Assembly: GCF_019649055.1 (NCBI RefSeq)
Contig: NW_026570226.1
Location: 2,232,001-2,296,000, forward strand
DNA length: 64,000 bases
Direction: 5' to 3'
From: Paramacrobiotus metropolitanus
Taxonomy: Eukaryota; Tardigrada; Eutardigrada; Parachela; Macrobiotidae
Every line of letters starts with the position of its first letter. Position 1 is the stretch's first letter. The position numbers were made by a program, and so were the translations under genes. The notes under the pieces were generated by a model that ran no database searches, had not been told where the DNA came from, and worked only from the letters and a program-made list of their open reading frames with translations. Positions 10,871 through 27,148 of this stretch are shown piece by piece.

Positions 10871-11738
10871 TTAAAAAAATATATTCTCTGCGTCACGATC
10901 GAAGCGTTTTTCTGTCCCATCGTCACCCGCGTCAACGATCAGCACAACTTCTTGAACTTTACGGCGATTCGCGCGGATGCGCTTGGGTCTCGACTCTTTG
11001 ATCAAGATGAACTTCGAAGACTGTGGTTTTGCAGGTTTTCGAGGCACGGCTTCTGTCTCGGTACTCGCAGTGTTGACGCCCAAAGTTGCATTCCACGATG
11101 GTTGCGAAGCGGTCACGTTATCCCAACCGGAAGCTTCTGAAAGTGAAATCGCTTAAATTTTTTGATTAATGGGTGGTATGGTGCGCAACGGTAATCTGGT
11201 GATTTTTATTTGTAATCGAAAATCAGTTCAACCATTATAAATACGTAAATTGTAATAATCTATGTACTTTTTGTTAATTTTGTGTACGAAATTATTGGTG
11301 CTTTAATGGAACGGTGGGCAAAAGTCTGTCTTTTGCACAAAATCAAACATATCGCTTAGCTTTACCTGCAGTGGTTTCCGTGGCATTACTCGTTTCATTA
11401 TCTTCATCGGCCACAATGCAGCGATTGTGACAGATATTCCGACAGGTGGTAATTCCCTGAGAGAAACACCGGCGCTGGCAGACTTGACGGCATTGTCCAA
11501 TGCGGGCCGCTAATTTATCCATTTCGTCTTCTAGCTGCAGTTCCTTCAGAACTTCCTGATCAATATCCTCCAACTGCATTTCATCAGCTTCAGTAGTGGA
11601 AGTAGCATTTATACCCGGCGAAGAAGTAGAGGTGACGCTAGTAGAGATGCTGGAAGACTGTTTCGATTTGTTGGCACTGACGATACCAAAAAATGCCACG
11701 AAGGCAGCGGCACATAAACGCCAAAGGTCACGCTGCAT
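10871..11738 (-). CDS. Small secreted Cys-rich protein
   Basis: Two exons, 11738-11366 and 11136-10871, join phase 1 for 212 residues. The start has a hydrophobic signal-peptide-like segment (LWRLCAAAFVAFFGIVSA, residues 5-22), then a Ser/Thr-rich acidic stretch. A compact Cys block follows at about residues 83-110: CRQVCQRRCF and CRNICHNRC, seven to eight cysteines in CxxxC spacing that could form a helical disulfide hairpin. The C-terminal exon is basic (RPKRIRANRRK) with an acidic end. Two N-glycosylation sequons flank the Cys block (NETS, NATE). I do not recognise the family. It converges on the RAD54B-like gene. Confidence 0.6.
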
Positions 11739-12481: not shown

Positions 12482-15400
12482 CTAATACGAGCCACCTGTC
12501 ATCAGGTTAATTTTGAAAAATCCTCTGTTTCGAGGAGAGTGGGCATGACTGTTTAGTTCGCCTTTTCGGTAGAACGTTTTGCTGTCGGCTTCTTTGTACA
12601 TGTCGGCATCGCTTGTTGTCGGGGAATATGGCACTTCTCCTATTGCCCAAATCACATGCATAACGCCATTGACAATAGACTGGTCGGTGGGATGAGATGC
12701 TAGAAACAGAAGTGAAGTAGAGTATTTGCAAGCACACAAGTCAAGAATGCATATGCATAAATTATATACGTTCTCATGCAAAAATTACCTTATAGATTTG
12801 AATTACAATCATTATACTCGGACAATCGACAATTTAGCAAAATAATACGGATAACACAAAAAAATATAAAAACTTGAAATAACAGTTATTAAACAAATTA
12901 CTGCACAAAGTAACCGGAAGTCACGAACTTTCGAATCGTATTAATTACGAGTACATATTCATTTTTCAGCAACGCAGATCACACTGCCTTCATACTTCAT
13001 AGTTATTACGTCATTTGTACCGGTACAGCTATGTTCGCGTCGTACACTATACAGATAGCGCTCGCTATGCATAACAACCTACCTTGCAATTTTTTGCGAA
13101 ATAAAACATGCAAGATTCCTGTATCTGGATCTTCATAACAGTTTCCAGCTGTAAGACTTTGCTCCCCACCAAATACTTCATCTGGTAGCGGTGTGGAGTG
13201 ATCACGAGTATAAAGGTCACGAATGCGACACAGTTGTCCTTGAGCAGCTGCGTATGTAATATCGTTGCAACCCATGGGATGGAGCGGCACTGTAAGTGTG
13301 TTAAACGTAAAGGAGTGTTAATGTTGTGGACCTAGGGTCACTATAGAGTGATCACTCATTTTGCAAAATAACATTCGAAATACATGGATGCTTTAAAACA
13401 TTATGACTTCAAGACATGCCCATTATAAGGTAGTTTAGAAAAGCATTTCCTTCACGAACAGTGGTGGGTGGTTTATGTAAAGTTTGCATACCAGCGAAAA
13501 ATGCCTGATCTTGGAAATCCACAACCGTCTGAATGACTTCTCCATCTAAAAGAAATTAACAACACACCCACAGTTGTAGCAGAAATAAAGCTCACGATAA
13601 GTTCTAGAATTTCGTACTTTTTGAAACAGATGAAACTGTTTCTTTTGGAATGATGGGAAATGTTTTGCAAGTGGTGTTGATCCCTGTAATTGAGCGACAA
13701 TTGATTATCTCTGCTTATTACTTTAGTGAATATGGGTGCCGTACAATCCTGGCAAAAAGTTATAAAATATGAATATAATTAAAAACAGTGGGGCTACTGA
13801 AGAATTTTACCTTCCGGGCGCCAACCGAAACCGACCCAGTTGGTTGTGCCGGCTTCCAGAATCACCTCTATTTCTCCGATATCTGGCAGGATTCTCCAGT
13901 AAAACGTAAAATTACCGGGCGACGAGCGTTTTCTGTATAGATCCGGTTGGAAGTTGAAGTCCTTGACCGATGACTCGCTCGCGCATTTCGGACCAAACCA
14001 ACCGGTGGGACAATAGCACTGATGCTTAGGATAGAACTGGGCGTGGGTGTTGATGCATTTTCCACCGTTGTCGCAGTCAGTGTCGTCCAAGCACTCCTCT
14101 GTGTTCAGCGAAACCGAGCAAGTCAATATTTATGAATTCTGTTGCCAAATGACGTAAAATGTTTAATAAAGCTGCATCAATCAGTCTACCTTCAAACTCG
14201 CAGAAGGTGCCGACAAATGGTTTTTCACACTTGCAGAAACCATCATTCCATGTTCCGTGATCAGAACACGACGATTTTTCAGCTGGAAAAGAAATCGACA
14301 GGGCATTTCATATTTGGATTTTCATCTTGTTCAGCCAAATATCTGTGTATTTCTTATACAGGAACACGAACATTAACAAAGTAGTTGTTTTTGTTTCTGT
14401 AATAACCTAAATATAATCATTGGCCGCTAGCGTTACCATCATTCCATAAAAAAAATTTAGTGTTTATGTTGGCTACTGCTTATGTAAACTTTTCTTACAT
14501 GCATGGCTCCTGGCTGCATAGCTTTTCCTTAATAAAATTTCACTGCTTGCACAAAAAGATTTATTGTTCGCGCGGTACACCACAAATCAAAATACTTGTG
14601 TATTCTATCAGTCGTATTATTAAATTTTACTTGTCGGCTTTTCCACTATGCTGACATCCGCACAGGTCCTGAACCCAGGCGGAACTGCCGAGGCGGGAGT
14701 GTTCGTCCACGCTGGACCCAAGCCTTGCTTGATAACACGAATTATGCAGCGACCGCAAGTCACTTCCGCCGGCAGGGTGACGTATCCAATATTTCCAGCC
14801 GAGTTATTTCCAGAGAATTCATAGGCCTTTCCATTCGGAGGAGCCAATGTTGCTATTGCATTATATTCTTTATCTAGTAACTCAATTCTGTATCCACCCT
14901 ATAAATAGTGTCCACTAGTGTTTAGTAAATTTGTTTTCAAGCTAACCAGTAAGAAGAAATTAAATAAATACTGTAGAAGTCTGATCGGTTCATTGCACAA
15001 AAGGAGCAAACGCACACTTATAATAATTATTAATACTTCATGAGGTACAAGTATAATATAAACACAATGCAGTCGTACATATGTACAGAGGTACGTACTT
15101 CATGCAGCTGGCCGACTGCCCAGGTCACATTAAAAGAGCTTCCCATTAGCAGCTCAGTAACGTCTAAAATCAGCAAGAACGAATTCAGATTATTTTCGGT
15201 TGCGGTGCTAAGCACTAATGACTACAAATAACAAGGAAATCTACAAAAGTCTACCATTTCCTTTGGGCATTCCACATGGTCCAACCGGAGCATTCCTGTT
15301 AGTCAGGGCGTTTATGGGATACTGTCTAGCCCGGGGATAAACTAAACTGGAAAGAGTAGTAAATGGCGTGATTAAACAAACGCACGTCGGTGTTAATGTC

Positions 15401-15745
15401 ATGTTTGGCAGGATCCACTGAACTCCTGAGATAACAATTAATTACGAAGTATTAATTGTATATCCAACTTTGGACTGCGATATACTTCACAATTTTCCGA
15501 ACGTAAACTTACCGCACGAAAACTAGTAAATTTTATGCACATAGCTAGTATTACATGTATATGCAAATATTGTACTTCTGTCTGTGTACTGCGCCGCACG
15601 GGGCCGTCAAATACCTGATGTGAGCTGCGACGTCCGAAAACGTTAACAGTATTCCGAGTAGCAGGCCAGTTATCAGTCTAACGGAAATGTTTTCAGCAGA
15701 GTATGTTTGCTCCATATTTATCAAAATCTTTGCAAACTGTTTCAA
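12482..15745 (-). CDS. Secreted GPCG-domain, two EGF, DOMON protein
   Basis: Nine exons in phase: 15745-15615, 15346-15255, 15163-15099, 14898-14631, 14282-14190, 14098-13811, 13545-13492, 13289-13083, 12699-12482; 471 residues. A signal peptide (LLLGILLTFSDVAA) probably ends before His42. Next are YPRARQYP and GPCG (residues 66-69), then a beta-rich domain with NVTWAVGQLHEGGYRIELLD, a CGRC pair (144-147) and TCADVSIV. Two EGF-like modules follow (CSDHGTWNDGFCKCEKP; CDNGGKCI...CYCPTGWFGPKC). The DOMON domain covers about residues 255-395: WVGFGWRPE, HPMGCNDITYAAAQG, RDLYTRDHSTP, LFRKKLQASHPTD and MHVIWAIGE. DOMON domains bind haem or sugar. Direct joining of 13811 to 13545 keeps frame; a 27-nt candidate exon near 13750 would bring a stop. 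The N-terminal domain recalls histidine-brace copper proteins, which is inference. Confidence 0.78.
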
Positions 15746-16699: not shown

Positions 16700-19600
16700 A
16701 TGATTGGCCCGAAGCCCGAAGTTTCCTCCATGGGAATACAAACCAGTCCCCTGGTATCATCGTCCAGTGAATCCGAATTCCCCACCGAGCCCCATTCGCT
16801 GGAGAACACTCGCAACAAACATCGACGACGCACTCTGCGATGTCCGCAGTGTGGCTTTGTCGGACGGGCCAATGCGTTCTACGATCGTCAACCTAACTTC
16901 AAACCCTGCAGCCCTGAATTGCAGGTGCAAGAGCTGGTTCGGAGTGCCAGTAAACTTCGAGCAGGTAAATCAAACATCCACTTCATACTGTTGCGTAGAC
17001 AGACGTGCCGCTTGCGAATAGTTATTCTAGCTGTACATAAGAAATTTTTTTGCTTTATTTTATTGACATTTTTATTTACTTCTTGTATACATATATCTTC
17101 TGGGAATTTTATCTGTACAGGATTGTCGAATTTGTCGCTGCCATCGTCCGCGTTCACTGAGTTGCACTCTAAAGATGCGCTGTCCGATGCCGCATTTATT
17201 ACGCGATTATCATGTGTTTTAAAATCTCCCATTGAAATCAAGAGCCCGTTAGCGTCCAGTGTTAATCAGAATCCGCTGGATCAAGTTTTGAATCGTGCGC
17301 CTTTACCTCCTGATCATCAATCGCCAAGTGACAGTGTTTTCTGTTTCGCGGAAAAGACAGTTAATGATCTGTTTGAAGTGGGTGTGGAGGATGTGGAGAC
17401 TTCCGATGCAGCGGTACAAGCCATATCTTCCACACAGGACATCGCCACCGCCGTGTCGCAGACGGAGCTCGGTTCGGTTATCGATGTTGCACACGTGCCC
17501 AGCGTATTTTCCGCCGTATCAGGCTCGGATGTAGGGATTGTCTCTCCCGCTCACGAGAGCATTCGCGTGACGCTGTCGGATGTGGAGCGTTTCACAGCCG
17601 CTCTGGAACATGGAAAAGTACAACCTATTCCTTCTGCAGACGCAGCGCATGTTAAAAGTATAGCTTCGAGTCTCACGGATGCGGAATCTGGTTTGTTGCG
17701 ACCCACATCACTGGATGGCCTGATATCGAAGGATTCGTTATCCGCTACAGTTTTACCGGAAACTCAGCATCCTTTCACTCGTTCAGTTCCCCGCCTCCGC
17801 CGCCACCACCACCAGTTTCTGCGTTGCTGCGGTCAGATAATGGAACACTCAGTCTTTCTCCTGGATCTCTTCTTGGATCTCAAGCGCAGATTCCTCTGCC
17901 GCCGCCTCCACCTCCCGTGTTTGGAATGGCTTCTTCCGTACCTCGTGTGCTGATATCTCCTTCGGTTTCCGGTGCACCTCCACCTCCTCCCCCACCTCCA
18001 CCAGGAATTCAGGCCGGTCCCCCACCGCCTCCTCCGCCACCAGTCAGCGGACACGGATTTGCGCCAGCGCCTCCACCTGGAACCCGAGCAGGCCCACCCC
18101 CACCACCGCCCCCTCCGGGATTGCGTGGAATTCCCCCTCCACCCCCACCAGCTCCCATCAATGGCGTGCGACTACCACTGACTTCGCCCAATACTTCCAA
18201 TCCACCGGCATGGCCTGCACCTCCTCCGGGTGGTTTCGGTGTTCTCAAAAAAGGTGAACGATAAAGTGACGATTGGGTTAAACGGTGTGTAGACTATCGT
18301 CACGGTGTGTGTGTGTGTTAAACGGTTTTTCTATTGCAGTTCCGCGTAAACCATGTATTAAGCCGAAAGCAGAAATGACACCGGTTTTCTGGACGAAAAT
18401 CTCTCTTCCCAGCATTCTTCCTGATACTGTGGTCAGTGATTCCACTTCGGAAGCCGATTTCGTTATGGTTTCAAAGTAAGTACAATAACTATAAAAATTT
18501 GATTACTTTCACTGTGGAAATAGCGTCCGGTTATTGTATTAGAGCCAAATCATTGTGGGAAATTATACCGGAGGTTCCAGTTAACGAAGAGGAACTGGTC
18601 GACAAGTTCTCTAAAAAGAAGTCAGAGGGAATTAAACTGAAGACAAAGCAGTCGGCAGTCAACCAGAATTTAGCTTCTCAGAGCAAGGAAAAGGTGAGAA
18701 TGTCGTAAGAAGAACGCGAACTTACTTTTGTTGTTTTGTCAGCTGTGATTACATAATTCATGATTTTTTATTGGTTAGCTTAGAATGGCACACATTTTCG
18801 ATGCGAAGCGGAGTCAAGCTGTGGGAATTGTGATGAAAAATTTGAAGATAGAAGGAAAGAAATTAACAGCGGGCGATATTAAAACAGCGCTGTATGAAGG
18901 CCAGACGGAAAAATTAACTGCGGAGATTGTTAAACGTCTGGACGAAATGGTATTGCGAGGCTTGTTCATGTGCACTTGTGCAGCGCTATCAAATATTCCG
19001 AAAACGTGTGTTGCACGTTTTTAGAAAGCAACACCGGAAGAATTGAAGCTGATGCGGGATCAGCTAACTCGAGAACCGGATACCCCATTGGATGAACCCG
19101 AAAAGTACGATTCTTTTGTAGATTTTCTGTTATTTCCGTCTCGTGTTCATACCATTTCCGTATTTCCAGGTGGCTGCTGGATTTGTCGCAAATCTTGCAT
19201 TTTGAAACTCGACTGTCGTGCCTGCAAACATTCTTTTCTTTCGAAGAGAAACTGAATACGATAACAAACCCGACTGCCGCTCTGCAGAGTATACTAACCA
19301 CTCTTACCAGTTCGGATTCCGTTAAAAATATTCTGGCTATAATTCTGTCGTACGGGAATTACATGAACGGAGGTACAGTATTACTGTACCCTTATTGCCT
19401 TATGCCGTTAAGATGGCGATGCGAGAAGCGCTCGTTTGGGTTACAATTTGTACAGTAAAATTATTTGTTTAACATTGGTTTTGGTATTTTTACAGTACGT
19501 AATTTCATAGTAACGTATCTGTGACTAATAAGGATAGATCATAGATTCATATTTTTGTTCGCCTGGCGTAAAAAGTAATCACACCTTGCTGACCTCGATT

Positions 19601-22708: not shown

Positions 22709-25700
22709 ATGGGGTCTCGTCCGGAATACGATGAAGCGAAAATCCCTGCTGACTTCGGGTGTTTGTTCATTACCAATCTTGTAGATGATGAAGTAAGCAT
22801 CACTAAGGAAGACGCTAAGGAACTCAGTGGAAACAGTTTTTTAGAGCCGAATTACAATGACTTTTTGCAGGATCGCACAAGAGAAGTTTTCCGTGAGAAG
22901 GCCCAGGTGGAGATCGCTGAGATTCGACTACTGAAACAGAAAGAAGACCAAACAACACGGGCTGGGTAAGTTGACCTTCACACATTTATGAACTCTTTCA
23001 GTCTCTTCTTTGATGTTTCAAATATGCGTTCCAATAAGGACATTAAAAATCAGGCTGTAGAGATAAACTTCTTCATTGCCTGAATTTCCCTGTATGATTT
23101 ATGCACCACACAAATCGTTGAACAGAAAAGCGGTTGCCTCCTAGCTAAAAAAAATTCGGAAATCACATTTACGATAAAACTTACAAGATCGGATTACTTA
23201 ATTGTGTTTTTTCCATGCAGACTTTTATCGATGTTTTCTTTAAATGGTAATTATAATTTCTAGTATCATTGACGTGGGATCAAAAGAAAATGCCAAGAAA
23301 GTCATGCGAACAATGGCTGGCAGGGATCTTTTTGAGGAGGGAAAGAAAGTGCGCGTCAATTGGGATGGTCGCAGTATGGTAAGTGACCGTTGTTAGCGGT
23401 ATCGAAATTAATATACTTTACATTTCTTAGTTAAACGTTAACAGTACTGTTGAACATGTTGAACATTTAATATATGCGGGAATAATTGTAGCAAAAACGC
23501 GGTTTCAATGCCGAGAAGGAATCCGGCGGTGACGGCGGTGGCGGTGGCTTCGGTTTCAGCTTCGGCGGCTTTGGCGGTTCGGCGGGAAACGGCGCCGGTA
23601 GCAGTTCATTCCAGAGCGGTGGCCCACGTAACTTCGATAACACGGGGTAAGTATTAATTTACTGGTTATACGGCTGCATGTGTAGTGTGAATACTTACTG
23701 TTAATTTCTGACTTCTTGTTGACAATACAAAATGATCAACAACGTGTCATTTTCAGATCATCGTTTGCTAACGGCGGCGCTAGTGATGGTGAGTTAAATT
23801 CTTCAGTATTAATATGCAAAGTTAAGTTATCCAATTTGATACCGGTTTTTTTTATGCCTGCTTCCTTTTTAACAATTAGTCAACGTTTCATTTTCCCACT
23901 GCGGACGTGTGCTTGTTCCGCTTCGAGACACAAAGAACACGGTTGTTGGATATATTTGGGAAGAAGCGACTGGGAATTCGACGCTTCCCAGGTCTTCAGC
24001 GGCTAATGAACAAAGCGCTGCCGGTAAGTTACTATTTTGTCTTATTTGATTTATGGTTTACGAAAGAAGTTTATAAATCATCCGGTGACTTTCGAAAAGA
24101 ACTTTGTTTGGACAACTGCATCCATTTCAGCCCCTGCAGCCAGTAGCACTGGTTTTGGAAGAGGATTTGGTGCCAAACGTGACGAACCGGTCGCAGAGAA
24201 AGCTGCTCCTGTTGGCGGTGAAGAAGATGGGAAATCGCATGAGCCGGCTCGTGGTTTTGGTCGAGGTTTTGGTGCCAAGCGTGACGAACCGGCTACAGAG
24301 AAGCCGGCTCCTGCCAGTGAGGAAGAAGGAAAACCCTATTTCCGTCGCCGGGATGTCAACAAATCGAAGAGTTCCATCAACGTCATCGAAGACCAAGATA
24401 AAGATATTATGCCTGGTGAGAGTTAGTAGTAATTTCTTATGGACGTGACTTTCATTTCATTGTTCATTTGCTTATGTTAGAAATCCAAGATGTACCGCAG
24501 CGAACATCCCGGCGCAGAATTCTCGATGCGTCAGTGAGCGTGTCGGACGCACAGCGCGGAAAAGGTACAGGTTTGATATTCAAGTCAGGCTTTCTCATGG
24601 CAAACACCAATTATCTTTTACAGACGAGAAGGAAAGCGACGCTCCCCGTCGTCGACATGCACCAATTGAAGCGCCAAAGGAAGGTGAGGAGCCGGTCAAG
24701 CCAGTCATGGCAATGGGTCGTATGCGAGCACGCTCGGCGCGTATCGGCCAGGACAGCACGGATCTGGATGCTTTTCCAGGAACAAGGTTGGTTGTAGTCG
24801 ATAATTCATTGATGATACGGTTTTGTCAGTTGACCGCTGGTTATCTTTTTCTTCAGCTTGACTGTGGGTGAAGAAGTTGTGTTGACGTTGGCATCTGTGC
24901 TCCCCGACTGCCGCGTGGGCTTCTTCCTGCCTCAAAAAGACAAAGCACTTACTGGGGACGATTCCGTCAACAAAATTGGCGGTCTTTTGAAGAATTTCTA
25001 TGATGGAAAAGCGGAATCACGGTAAGTTATAAGAAGAAATTTTATTCGATGTGTTGTAGTTTCGTTTGAGGAGCTTACTTAATCTCTGATAATGAGGAAC
25101 GTTAGCGAAGGCACACAGCAGTAAGCATTTTTCAGTGATTTCTTTCGTCTGTTTCAGTGGTTTCGAAGAGAACAAGCCGGTGGCGGTCAAGGATGATAAA
25201 AGTAACCAGTGGTATCGTGGGAAATGTTTAACTAAAGGGAGCCCCAACTCGTTAATTTTACTCGTGGATGTGGGCGAAGAACTTTCCTTGCCAAACACAA
25301 CTATCCAGCCACTGGACAAGCAATTTGGGGATCCTTGCCTGGCTGTTGTCGCCACGTTGGAGGACGTGCCGAAGAACATGAAATCGACCGATCTGGAAAA
25401 AGCGCTCACCAATTACGAAGATTCTCATCAAAGTGGTTTCAAGGTCGTCGTGCGACAGACTGATCCGCTGGTGGTGGCGATGGCGGAAAAGAATGGCCTG
25501 TTCGGCGGCGAGGCCAGCGGGAAGAAGATTGCCGGCAACGTACAGACCGGTGCCTCTATCGGCAATGTTTTGTTTGTTGACTCTGGAACGGGGCAGTTCT
25601 TCCTGGTAGATGATTCCAATTTGGCGAAACTTGATGTAAGTCTTGTCTTCAAATATTTACTAATAGAAATCTTAATTGTCCAAGTTATTCCGATAACTTG

Positions 25701-27148
25701 ACTTACCGCTTGCCTGCTCGGCCTGATACATTATGCTGACTCTTTGCCGTTTTTTTACAGGAAATCCAGAGCCTTGTGAAAGAAGATGCCGAGAAGAATC
25801 TGCGAGGTGCGCTGCAAGTTAACGAAATGAATGCAGTGCTGTTCGACGATGACAACGTGTTCTATCGCGGAATTTTGACGTCAAAGACTGCGAAAGGCTT
25901 CGAAGTGGATTTCTTCGATTATGGCAACATGGTGGAACAGTCTGCTGATAAGATACGCGGATTAAGCTCATCAGTGGCTAACATGGGCACGCCGACTTTG
26001 GGATGCTTTGTGGCTAATGTGCCAACGAAGGATCAAAAAAATCCGGCCCTGATTGCCCAGCTGAACGCCCTTCTCTCGAAGTCAGTTCCGTACGAAGTCA
26101 AGTATGAGAAGGACGGACTTGAATACGTCTTCTTGTGGGATGCTGAGGGCAAGTTGGTTGGTGAAGAATTCATGGACAAGACTGTGGTGCAGAATGGACT
26201 GCCGAGCTTCCTGGCCAAAGATATGACATACTATGTGGATTTAAAGAAAGGTGACAAAATTCCAGTCGCGGTCAGCCATGTTGCGGATCCGGAGTTCGTG
26301 TTCCTCAATACGACCCAATTCAACATTGGTAAGCAGTGCGTAATTGTTTTAATTAAAAGCTCGAATTACCGAAACGATTATTCGCTTTTAGATACAGTGT
26401 TAAGCAAACTGCAAGTCCGTCTTCAGGAAGAGGGTGACAAGCTGCCGAAGCTTGCAGAGATGCCACCGACGGGATCCGTTGTTGTTGCGAAATTTAGTCT
26501 AGGTACACGGGACTTACCTTGACTAAACTTGCCGATGCATTTCAACATTTGCCTGCTTTTTGATCTTTAGATAATCAGTGGTATCGCGCTGCCATTGAGA
26601 AAGAAGGAACGGCAAAGAAACGACTGGTTACTTATGTTGATTACGGCAACACCGAAGAAGTGGAGTTGGAAGATATGCGCGAGATCACCAAGGAGCTTTT
26701 CGAAGTGCCACGGGCCGCATTTCAAGTTGGCCTGAACGGTAAGAAACTTGGAACTGTATTTTGCCATTTTTATTTTGAATTCATCTATTTGAAACACTTT
26801 TGGTACAGATCTCGGCTTTTAAACGTTATTACAAATCATTTAATAAGACTGCTTCCTAATTTTCAGTTTTGAAGTTAAGTATACTTATATATCTGCGAAA
26901 AGAACGTGTGGGAAGAGGATCATAAACAAGGTTATTGTTGTATTTCAGGGATTGCACCCGTGGGAAAGGAGTACTCGCGCGCGGTTAACGATAAGGCGAT
27001 GGAGCTGCTGGCGAGCAAACTTGGCCAGTTGACTGTTACCGGCGTGGACAAGAAATACGGTGTCTTTGAGGGCGACCTGGTGTTGGATGAAGGCAATCAG
27101 TCAGCGGTAGATTTGTTGGTTGCCAACAAATGCGGTGCCAAGAAATAA
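22709..27148 (+). CDS. RRM plus multi-Tudor protein with FG/RG repeats
   Basis: Fourteen exons, all in phase: 22709-22965, 23264-23378, 23492-23646, 23757-23788, 23880-24023, 24131-24415, 24481-24564, 24624-24786, 24857-25021, 25158-25635, 25761-26328, 26392-26502, 26571-26738, 26949-27148; 974 residues. Residues 1-124 resemble an RRM: LFITNL as RNP2, VEIAEIRLLK, then GGIIDVGSKENAKKVM and GKKVRVNW, with RNP1 aromatics missing and a long loop after helix 1. A Gly/Phe-rich stretch and two GFGRGFGAKRDEP repeats follow. Tudor units follow: WYRGKC...LLVDVGEE (degenerate), FYRGILTSK...VDFFDYGN (about 652-690) and WYRAAIEKEG...VTYVDYGN (about 856-895). Tudor domains bind dimethyl-arginine tails of Piwi and similar proteins. 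A germ-granule/piRNA scaffold role is inferred from the architecture. Confidence 0.83.
24149..24301 (+). repeat. Coding repeat GFGRGFGAKRDEP, two copies
   Basis: Two copies of the same 13-residue block lie in the sixth exon of the RRM-Tudor gene, starting near 24152 and 24254. They are spaced by acidic/Ala-Pro linkers (EKAAP, EKPAP). The FGRGFG core is an FG/RG motif of the kind arginine-methylated in Vasa-like proteins. Confidence 0.75.

Follow-up and report, generated by a model that had tools for sequence, protein, structure and literature searches.

LPMOs are copper enzymes that cleave chitin and cellulose. The animal histidine-brace proteins named in a 2023 review are AA15 LPMOs (PMC10952591). 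For one of these, the insect enzyme TdAA15A (PDB entry 5msz), a passage of its description gives His1 and His91 as the copper ligands and Tyr184 as the axial residue (PMC5823890). A second-sphere motif of LPMO catalysis, N/Q/E-x-F/Y/W, is set out in one part of Voshol 2019 (PMC6950343), and we read it as E182-x-Y184 in TdAA15A from the 5msz alignment. The same paper contains a single sentence which places DOMON/EGF and LPMO_10 sequences on an early branch of the LPMO tree (PMC6950343). The domain names are those of the protein described below, but that sentence does not state outright that the domains are arranged in one chain, and it gives no brace analysis or function (PMC6950343). We infer that these sequences and our protein form the same group. 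Among the papers listed by searches of the open-licence literature for DOMON together with LPMO, histidine-brace or metazoan, we judged none but this one relevant, and we saw no functional study. A DOMON of the plant protein HYP1 has been modelled with a Met-His haem pair, M90-H174, according to an extract of that study (PMC10784544).

In this paper we describe a gene from the window, by which we mean the whole stretch of 64,000 nucleotides of DNA that was analysed. Its product begins with a likely signal peptide; from His32 on there is an N-terminal domain, which is followed by two EGF-like modules and then by a DOMON. The assignment of the N-terminal domain to the histidine-brace LPMO superfamily is well supported by profile comparison. 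The position of the domain within that superfamily, and what the whole chain might do, are discussed below.

Gene model, predicted mature N-terminus and paralogues

The gene is real. It lies on the minus strand and encodes a protein of 461 aa, and its nine exons were joined by hand, with GT-AG at every intron and the codon of S34 split by one of them (Table 1). A spliced aligner returned identical exons, but its query was our own hand-joined model and its agreement is not independent; the exon joins are backed by four paralogues. The stop codon ends at 12482, and the first in-frame ATG is at 15715. The first-pass annotation had started the protein at 15745, which is a TTG ten codons upstream of this ATG, and its His42 and His95 therefore become His32 and His85. 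The motifs HIS-LVYPRARQYP, PCG, LHEGG, CGRC and TCAD are all found in the spliced protein. Predicted cleavage before H32, read from the sequence, fits the -3/-1 rule (V29, A31), and in all five proteins of the family, that of the window included, V or I stands at -3 and A or S at -1 before the His.

Table 1. Features of the gene, with positions in the window and the evidence for each.
Feature	Position	Strand	Evidence
Gene, nine coding exons	12482..15715	-	GT-AG introns, open frame; spliced aligner agrees (stop codon excluded)
Exons 1-5	15715-15615, 15346-15255, 15163-15099, 14898-14631, 14282-14190	-	
Exons 6-9	14098-13811, 13545-13492, 13289-13083, 12699-12482	-	
Likely signal peptide, residues 1-31, predicted cleavage A31/H32	15623..15715	-	hydrophobic stretch, -3/-1 residues
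Codon of His32, predicted first mature residue, proposed brace ligand 1	15620..15622	-	5/5 paralogues, 20/20 aligned bacterial relatives
N-terminal histidine-brace domain, about residues 32-170 (exons 1-4), LPMO superfamily, SCE4755-like	14647..15622	-	profile matches
Codon of His85 (L-H-E-G-G), proposed brace ligand 2	15102..15104	-	aligned to His91 of TdAA15A
Codon of Phe162, place of axial Tyr184 of TdAA15A	14671..14673	-	alignment to 5msz
Two EGF-like modules, about residues 178-246 (exons 5-6)	13980..14277	-	profiles under cut-off; Notch EGF chains in PDB
DOMON, about residues 249-412 (exons 6-9)	12632..13973	-	PF03351 E 2.4e-10
Codon of Met326 (LHPM), candidate haem ligand	13273..13275	-	Met in 5/5 paralogues; putative ligand role
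Codon of His404 (MHVIWA), candidate haem ligand	12656..12658	-	His in 4/5 paralogues, Thr in C18; putative ligand role

A protein search of the genome assembly (170 Mb, 533 contigs), which introns, EGF modules and gene build suggest to be that of an animal, found four further genes of identical build, on contigs C123, C15, C18 and C33, and a second search with the C33 domain as query returned the same five genes and no more. Identity of their N-terminal domains to that of the window gene is 80% for C123, 58% for C15, 37% for C18 and 40% for C33. The model of C33 is an uncertain one: two of the exons proposed by the aligner are 2 and 3 bases long, and 11 residues of open frame were removed as intron, so that they are missing from the C33 row of alignments A1, A3 and A4. 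The N-termini of the C15, C18 and C33 rows are incomplete. Weaker candidates from the first search were C113 (E 0.095) and C43 (E 0.375), as well as C12, which has EGF repeats only and was rejected.

Between the window gene and C123, its closest paralogue, more than half of the synonymous sites differ and few of the non-synonymous ones. The dN/dS ratio of this pair is lowest in the DOMON, at about 0.07, with about 0.09 for the EGFs and about 0.11 for the N-terminal domain; with dS near or above 1, these values are rough. To judge from these substitutions, the genes look maintained. With C15 as partner the DOMON ratio is 0.30, and synonymous changes in the N-terminal domain are saturated.

Relatives of the N-terminal domain

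When the N-terminal domain is cut out of the five animal proteins, LPMO_10 (PF03067) matches every one of them: 21.7 bits for the window domain, 19.2 for C123, 23.0 for C15, 24.3 for C18 and 25.3 for C33. Relative to the curated cut-off of 23 bits, two of these scores lie over, one at and two under, the window's among the last. A Pfam search with the full-length window protein did not find LPMO_10, and neither this protein nor the C33 domain, compared with the PDB as single sequences, found an LPMO. The bacterial "SCE4755 polysaccharide monooxygenase-like" family (NF043005) also matches all five animal domains (25.8-41.3 bits, E 1.5e-10 to 8.8e-6), all of them under its cut-off of 75 bits. The BIM1-like family (PF20238) matches C18 alone, and weakly (14.7 bits, E 0.044; cut-off 27).

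Profiles built from several members reach further into the PDB. That of the five animal domains finds the insect AA15 LPMO 5msz at E 2.2e-4. The mixed alignment A4, made of the five animal domains and ten of the 25 bacterial loci introduced below, finds 11 sequences at E up to 10, the best being again 5msz at E 4.5e-8. The others include two secreted cellulose-binding proteins (2.8e-4 and 0.0068), which by our own reading are AA10 (the one at 2.8e-4 is named ScLPMO10C in the Foldseek listing), AoAA13 (0.005) and chains of GH61/AA9 type or named endoglucanase (0.024 to 1). Two further chains, at 0.037 and 1.6, are unrelated. With the mixed profile reversed, the PDB search gave no LPMO and only two RNA polymerase subunits (0.055 and 0.079), and the search of Pfam and NCBIfam gave unrelated weak matches only. 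Taken singly at E up to 1, all 15 rows of A4 match LPMO_10 and 11 match the BIM1-like family. In one of the 15, Kre9/KNH, an Ig-like domain of fungi, is also matched weakly (E 0.063). The first-pass annotation had proposed a comparison with AA15, X325 and BIM1 profiles, and the profiles used here relate the domain to LPMO_10/AA15 and, by way of its bacterial relatives, to the BIM1-like proteins.

No match was obtained over the window's own genome with PF03067, even at the five genes described here, or with a 122-residue piece of 5msz. Since PF03067 is silent even at these genes, the genome searches are no proof that a canonical AA15 is absent. The viral contigs of IMG/VR contain no detected relative of the N-terminal domain.

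A scan of bacterial and archaeal contigs found one relative, the Myxococcales protein L016 (645-1082). It scores 166.8 bits with SCE4755 (cut-off 75), 42.4 with BIM1-like (cut-off 27) and 30.6 with LPMO_10 (cut-off 23). With the two Pfam scores both above their cut-offs, it links the fungal copper proteins to the LPMOs. The protein carries a MYXO-CTERM signal. Across 140 genomes of the phylum of L016, the SCE4755-type family turned up in 26, with 28 matches in all; our search of the open-licence literature for SCE4755 found no paper. Of the bacterial loci, 25 were examined and 20 aligned; L033 and L036-L039 were left out because their stretch was not cut out, and both His are visible by eye in their printed frames. 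The myxobacterial proteins resemble the animal domain in their similar size, the H..L..P start, PCG, a second His before a strand, CxxC, and C-A-D or close variants of it. They differ in that L016 has no EGF or DOMON match and in that the animal domains fall below the family cut-off. A second subgroup of bacterial SCE4755 proteins (L030, L031 and L034-L037) has YHHC before the final A-D-like residues, and R10 is missing from all four of its aligned members (L030, L031, L034 and L035).

A structure was predicted for L016, with L016 and three exon pieces of the window gene as input rows, as a bacterial stand-in for the spliced window protein. The model has seven strands and low confidence (pLDDT 54.7, pTM 0.49). 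Foldseek places 5msz first at E 1.3e-3, with Fet3p (1.4e-3) and auracyanin (1.7e-3) nearly level, and no match is under E 0.001. In VIA-align 5msz is again first (Z 7.6, rmsd 4.2 over 129), followed by Z scores up to 6.8 for unrelated sandwiches, 5.8-6.7 for AA10s and 6.1 for LaX325, all of these values being below 8. Given its low confidence, the model is too weak for a His-His distance. It is in line with what the sequences show and lends this little further support.

The putative copper site

H85 (mature H54) falls on residue 91 of 5msz in both the five-member and the mixed profile alignment, and F162 (mature F131) falls on residue 184 in the five-member one. Both His, P7, four Cys and the axial aromatic are present in 5/5 animal and 20/20 aligned bacterial rows. 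The axial place holds F or Y in the five animal rows and Y in all 20 bacterial ones; R10 is missing from five of the bacterial rows, and the Asp of CAD is replaced by Glu in two. The residues invariant in the five animal domains include, in mature numbering, H1, I2, L4, Y6, P7 and R10, the Cys of PCG, H54 and the GG that comes two residues after it, CxxC and CAD. H1 and H54 (H32 and H85) are the only two histidines in the N-terminal domain of the window protein, and both are brace positions. Their presence in all five paralogues, together with a dN/dS of about 0.11, means that the conserved pair is not due to chance.

The two-His brace suggested in the first-pass annotation is thereby supported: the domain has profile kinship to LPMO_10/AA15, H85 lies on His91, and both His are conserved in paralogues and bacterial homologues alike. 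We consider it probable that the site is a copper brace, and copper binding is likely on this sequence evidence.

The surroundings of the site are less like those of an LPMO. None of the five animal proteins has N, Q or E at the second-sphere place, which was counted back without gaps from the Cys of CAD: the residues there are P, P, Y, H and F. The corresponding residues at 15 of the 25 bacterial loci are 12 D, one E, one R and one T, so the Asp of 12 of these 15 rows has no parallel in the animal rows. The two brace His are 53 residues apart in the window domain versus 90 in TdAA15A, about 37 fewer. In LPMOs the region between the two His carries much of the substrate face. Although the second His, the axial aromatic, CxxC and CAD all align with AA15, the window domain has about 140 residues, compared with about 192 given for the AA15 catalytic domain in an excerpt of PMC9156745, and four Cys, compared with the ten conserved ones mentioned in the passage on TdAA15A (PMC5823890). 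The long His-His stretch and the N/Q/E residue of AA15 are both missing from the animal domains. The shorter stretch, the four Cys and the lack of N/Q/E lead us to regard the site as a putative histidine-brace copper site with changed chemistry, and not as a proven LPMO.

EGF-like modules, DOMON and possible functions

The EGF modules named in the first-pass annotation stand as matches, since EGF-like models match within residues 178-250, but every one of these is under its cut-off: EGF reaches 21.4 bits, the best against a cut-off of 21.5, and EGF_TEN 31.7 bits (E 1.5e-7) against 65. The DOMON proposed there is clear, at 41.1 bits with PF03351 in the window protein (cut-off 32.7), and this model matches all five paralogues (best E 4.3e-15). 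EGF and DOMON domains occur as matrix modules. An alignment of the DOMON searched against the PDB gave no haem-DOMON structure and one chance-level match, and over the 140 genomes of the phylum of L016 PF03351 matches one genome, with a sequence uninformative on haem ligands. Met326 and His404 are 78 residues apart, near the 84 between the modelled ligands of the plant HYP1 DOMON. We infer from this that the DOMON could bind haem; it may instead bind sugar.

Our preferred reading of the whole chain is a secreted copper-redox protein in which the DOMON would supply electrons to the brace copper, and we hold it tentatively, at a little under an even chance. Once the signal peptide is cleaved off, His32 would use its amino group and its ring to hold one copper ion together with His85, on the LPMO-type beta sandwich for which homology is well supported. 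The two EGF-like modules might serve as a spacer. Should Met326 and His404 bind haem b, the DOMON could pass electrons to the copper, either within one chain or between chains, much as cellobiose dehydrogenase passes electrons to separate LPMOs. The shorter His-His region and the lack of the second-sphere residue point away from flat crystalline chitin or cellulose as substrate. Soluble or matrix glycans might take their place, for example; alternatively, the protein might carry out peroxide chemistry in the cuticle or the extracellular matrix.

Alternatively the protein could be a copper carrier or buffer, in which the brace holds copper tightly for delivery, a role proposed for fungal X325/BIM1, the DOMON reduces it or acts as an anchor, and there is no oxygenase chemistry. 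This would fit the kinship to X325/BIM1-like proteins (PF20238), which share the small size of the animal domain and to which the A4 rows and L016 are linked by the scores given above. These proteins also have the N-terminal H..L.YP..R start that is seen in the window domain. A small domain without the usual second-sphere residue is what one would expect of a protein not oxidising polysaccharide, and according to part of one source several X325 members had no detected polysaccharide activity and Bim1 takes part in copper uptake (PMC7924993). Yet C18 is the only one of the five animal domains to match the BIM1-like family, all five match LPMO_10 better, and the aspartate that the review extract names as the fourth copper ligand of X325 (PMC10952591) has no identified counterpart in the animal domains. 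We therefore regard a carrier as unlikely, while leaving it a real share of the probability.

It appears improbable to us that the protein is an ordinary chitin-active LPMO acting in the cuticle, with a DOMON that serves to bind sugar. The closest solved relative is an AA15, an axial Phe like that of the window protein is found in most chitin-active AA10 according to the passage on TdAA15A (PMC5823890), and an insect AA15 is needed for cuticle chitin turnover, as stated in part of another study (PMC9156745). These points are countered by the differences from AA15 already described, in the His-His stretch, the number of conserved Cys and the second-sphere residue. A matrix adhesion protein whose LPMO-like domain no longer binds metal would agree with the absent second-sphere residue and with coral DOMON proteins being classed with matrix and adhesion proteins in an excerpt of PMC3204972, but both His and their cleavage context persist in all five paralogues, down to 37% domain identity, and we think it very improbable.

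Returning to the copper-redox reading, the N-terminal domain looks like a second, compact branch of animal histidine-brace proteins, with five genes in one genome, and its brace domain is already joined to a domain type for which a plant member has been modelled with haem. Provided that the protein binds both copper and haem, it would be a ready-made system in which to study electron delivery to a brace copper in animals, and it would offer a testable comparison for its SCE4755 and BIM1-like relatives. With a copper brace and a haem DOMON in one chain, the animal protein might even be an extracellular oxidase or peroxygenase that supplies its own electrons. It would then stand for a compact class outside the LPMO families of CAZy, with uncharacterised myxobacterial proteins as its relatives; this wider proposal is on the unlikely side.

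Some other frames of the window can be mentioned. On the minus strand, 11343-11738 is a frame of 131 aa that probably starts with a signal peptide and is rich in cysteine towards its end (CRQVCQRRCFSQGITTCRNICHNRC), and on the plus strand 17824-18264 contains a proline-rich stretch that resembles a formin FH1 region; neither has a Pfam match at E up to 0.01. Two neighbouring plus-strand frames, 25135-25701 and 25776-26522, have Tudor domains (E 4.4e-7 and 7e-8, respectively).
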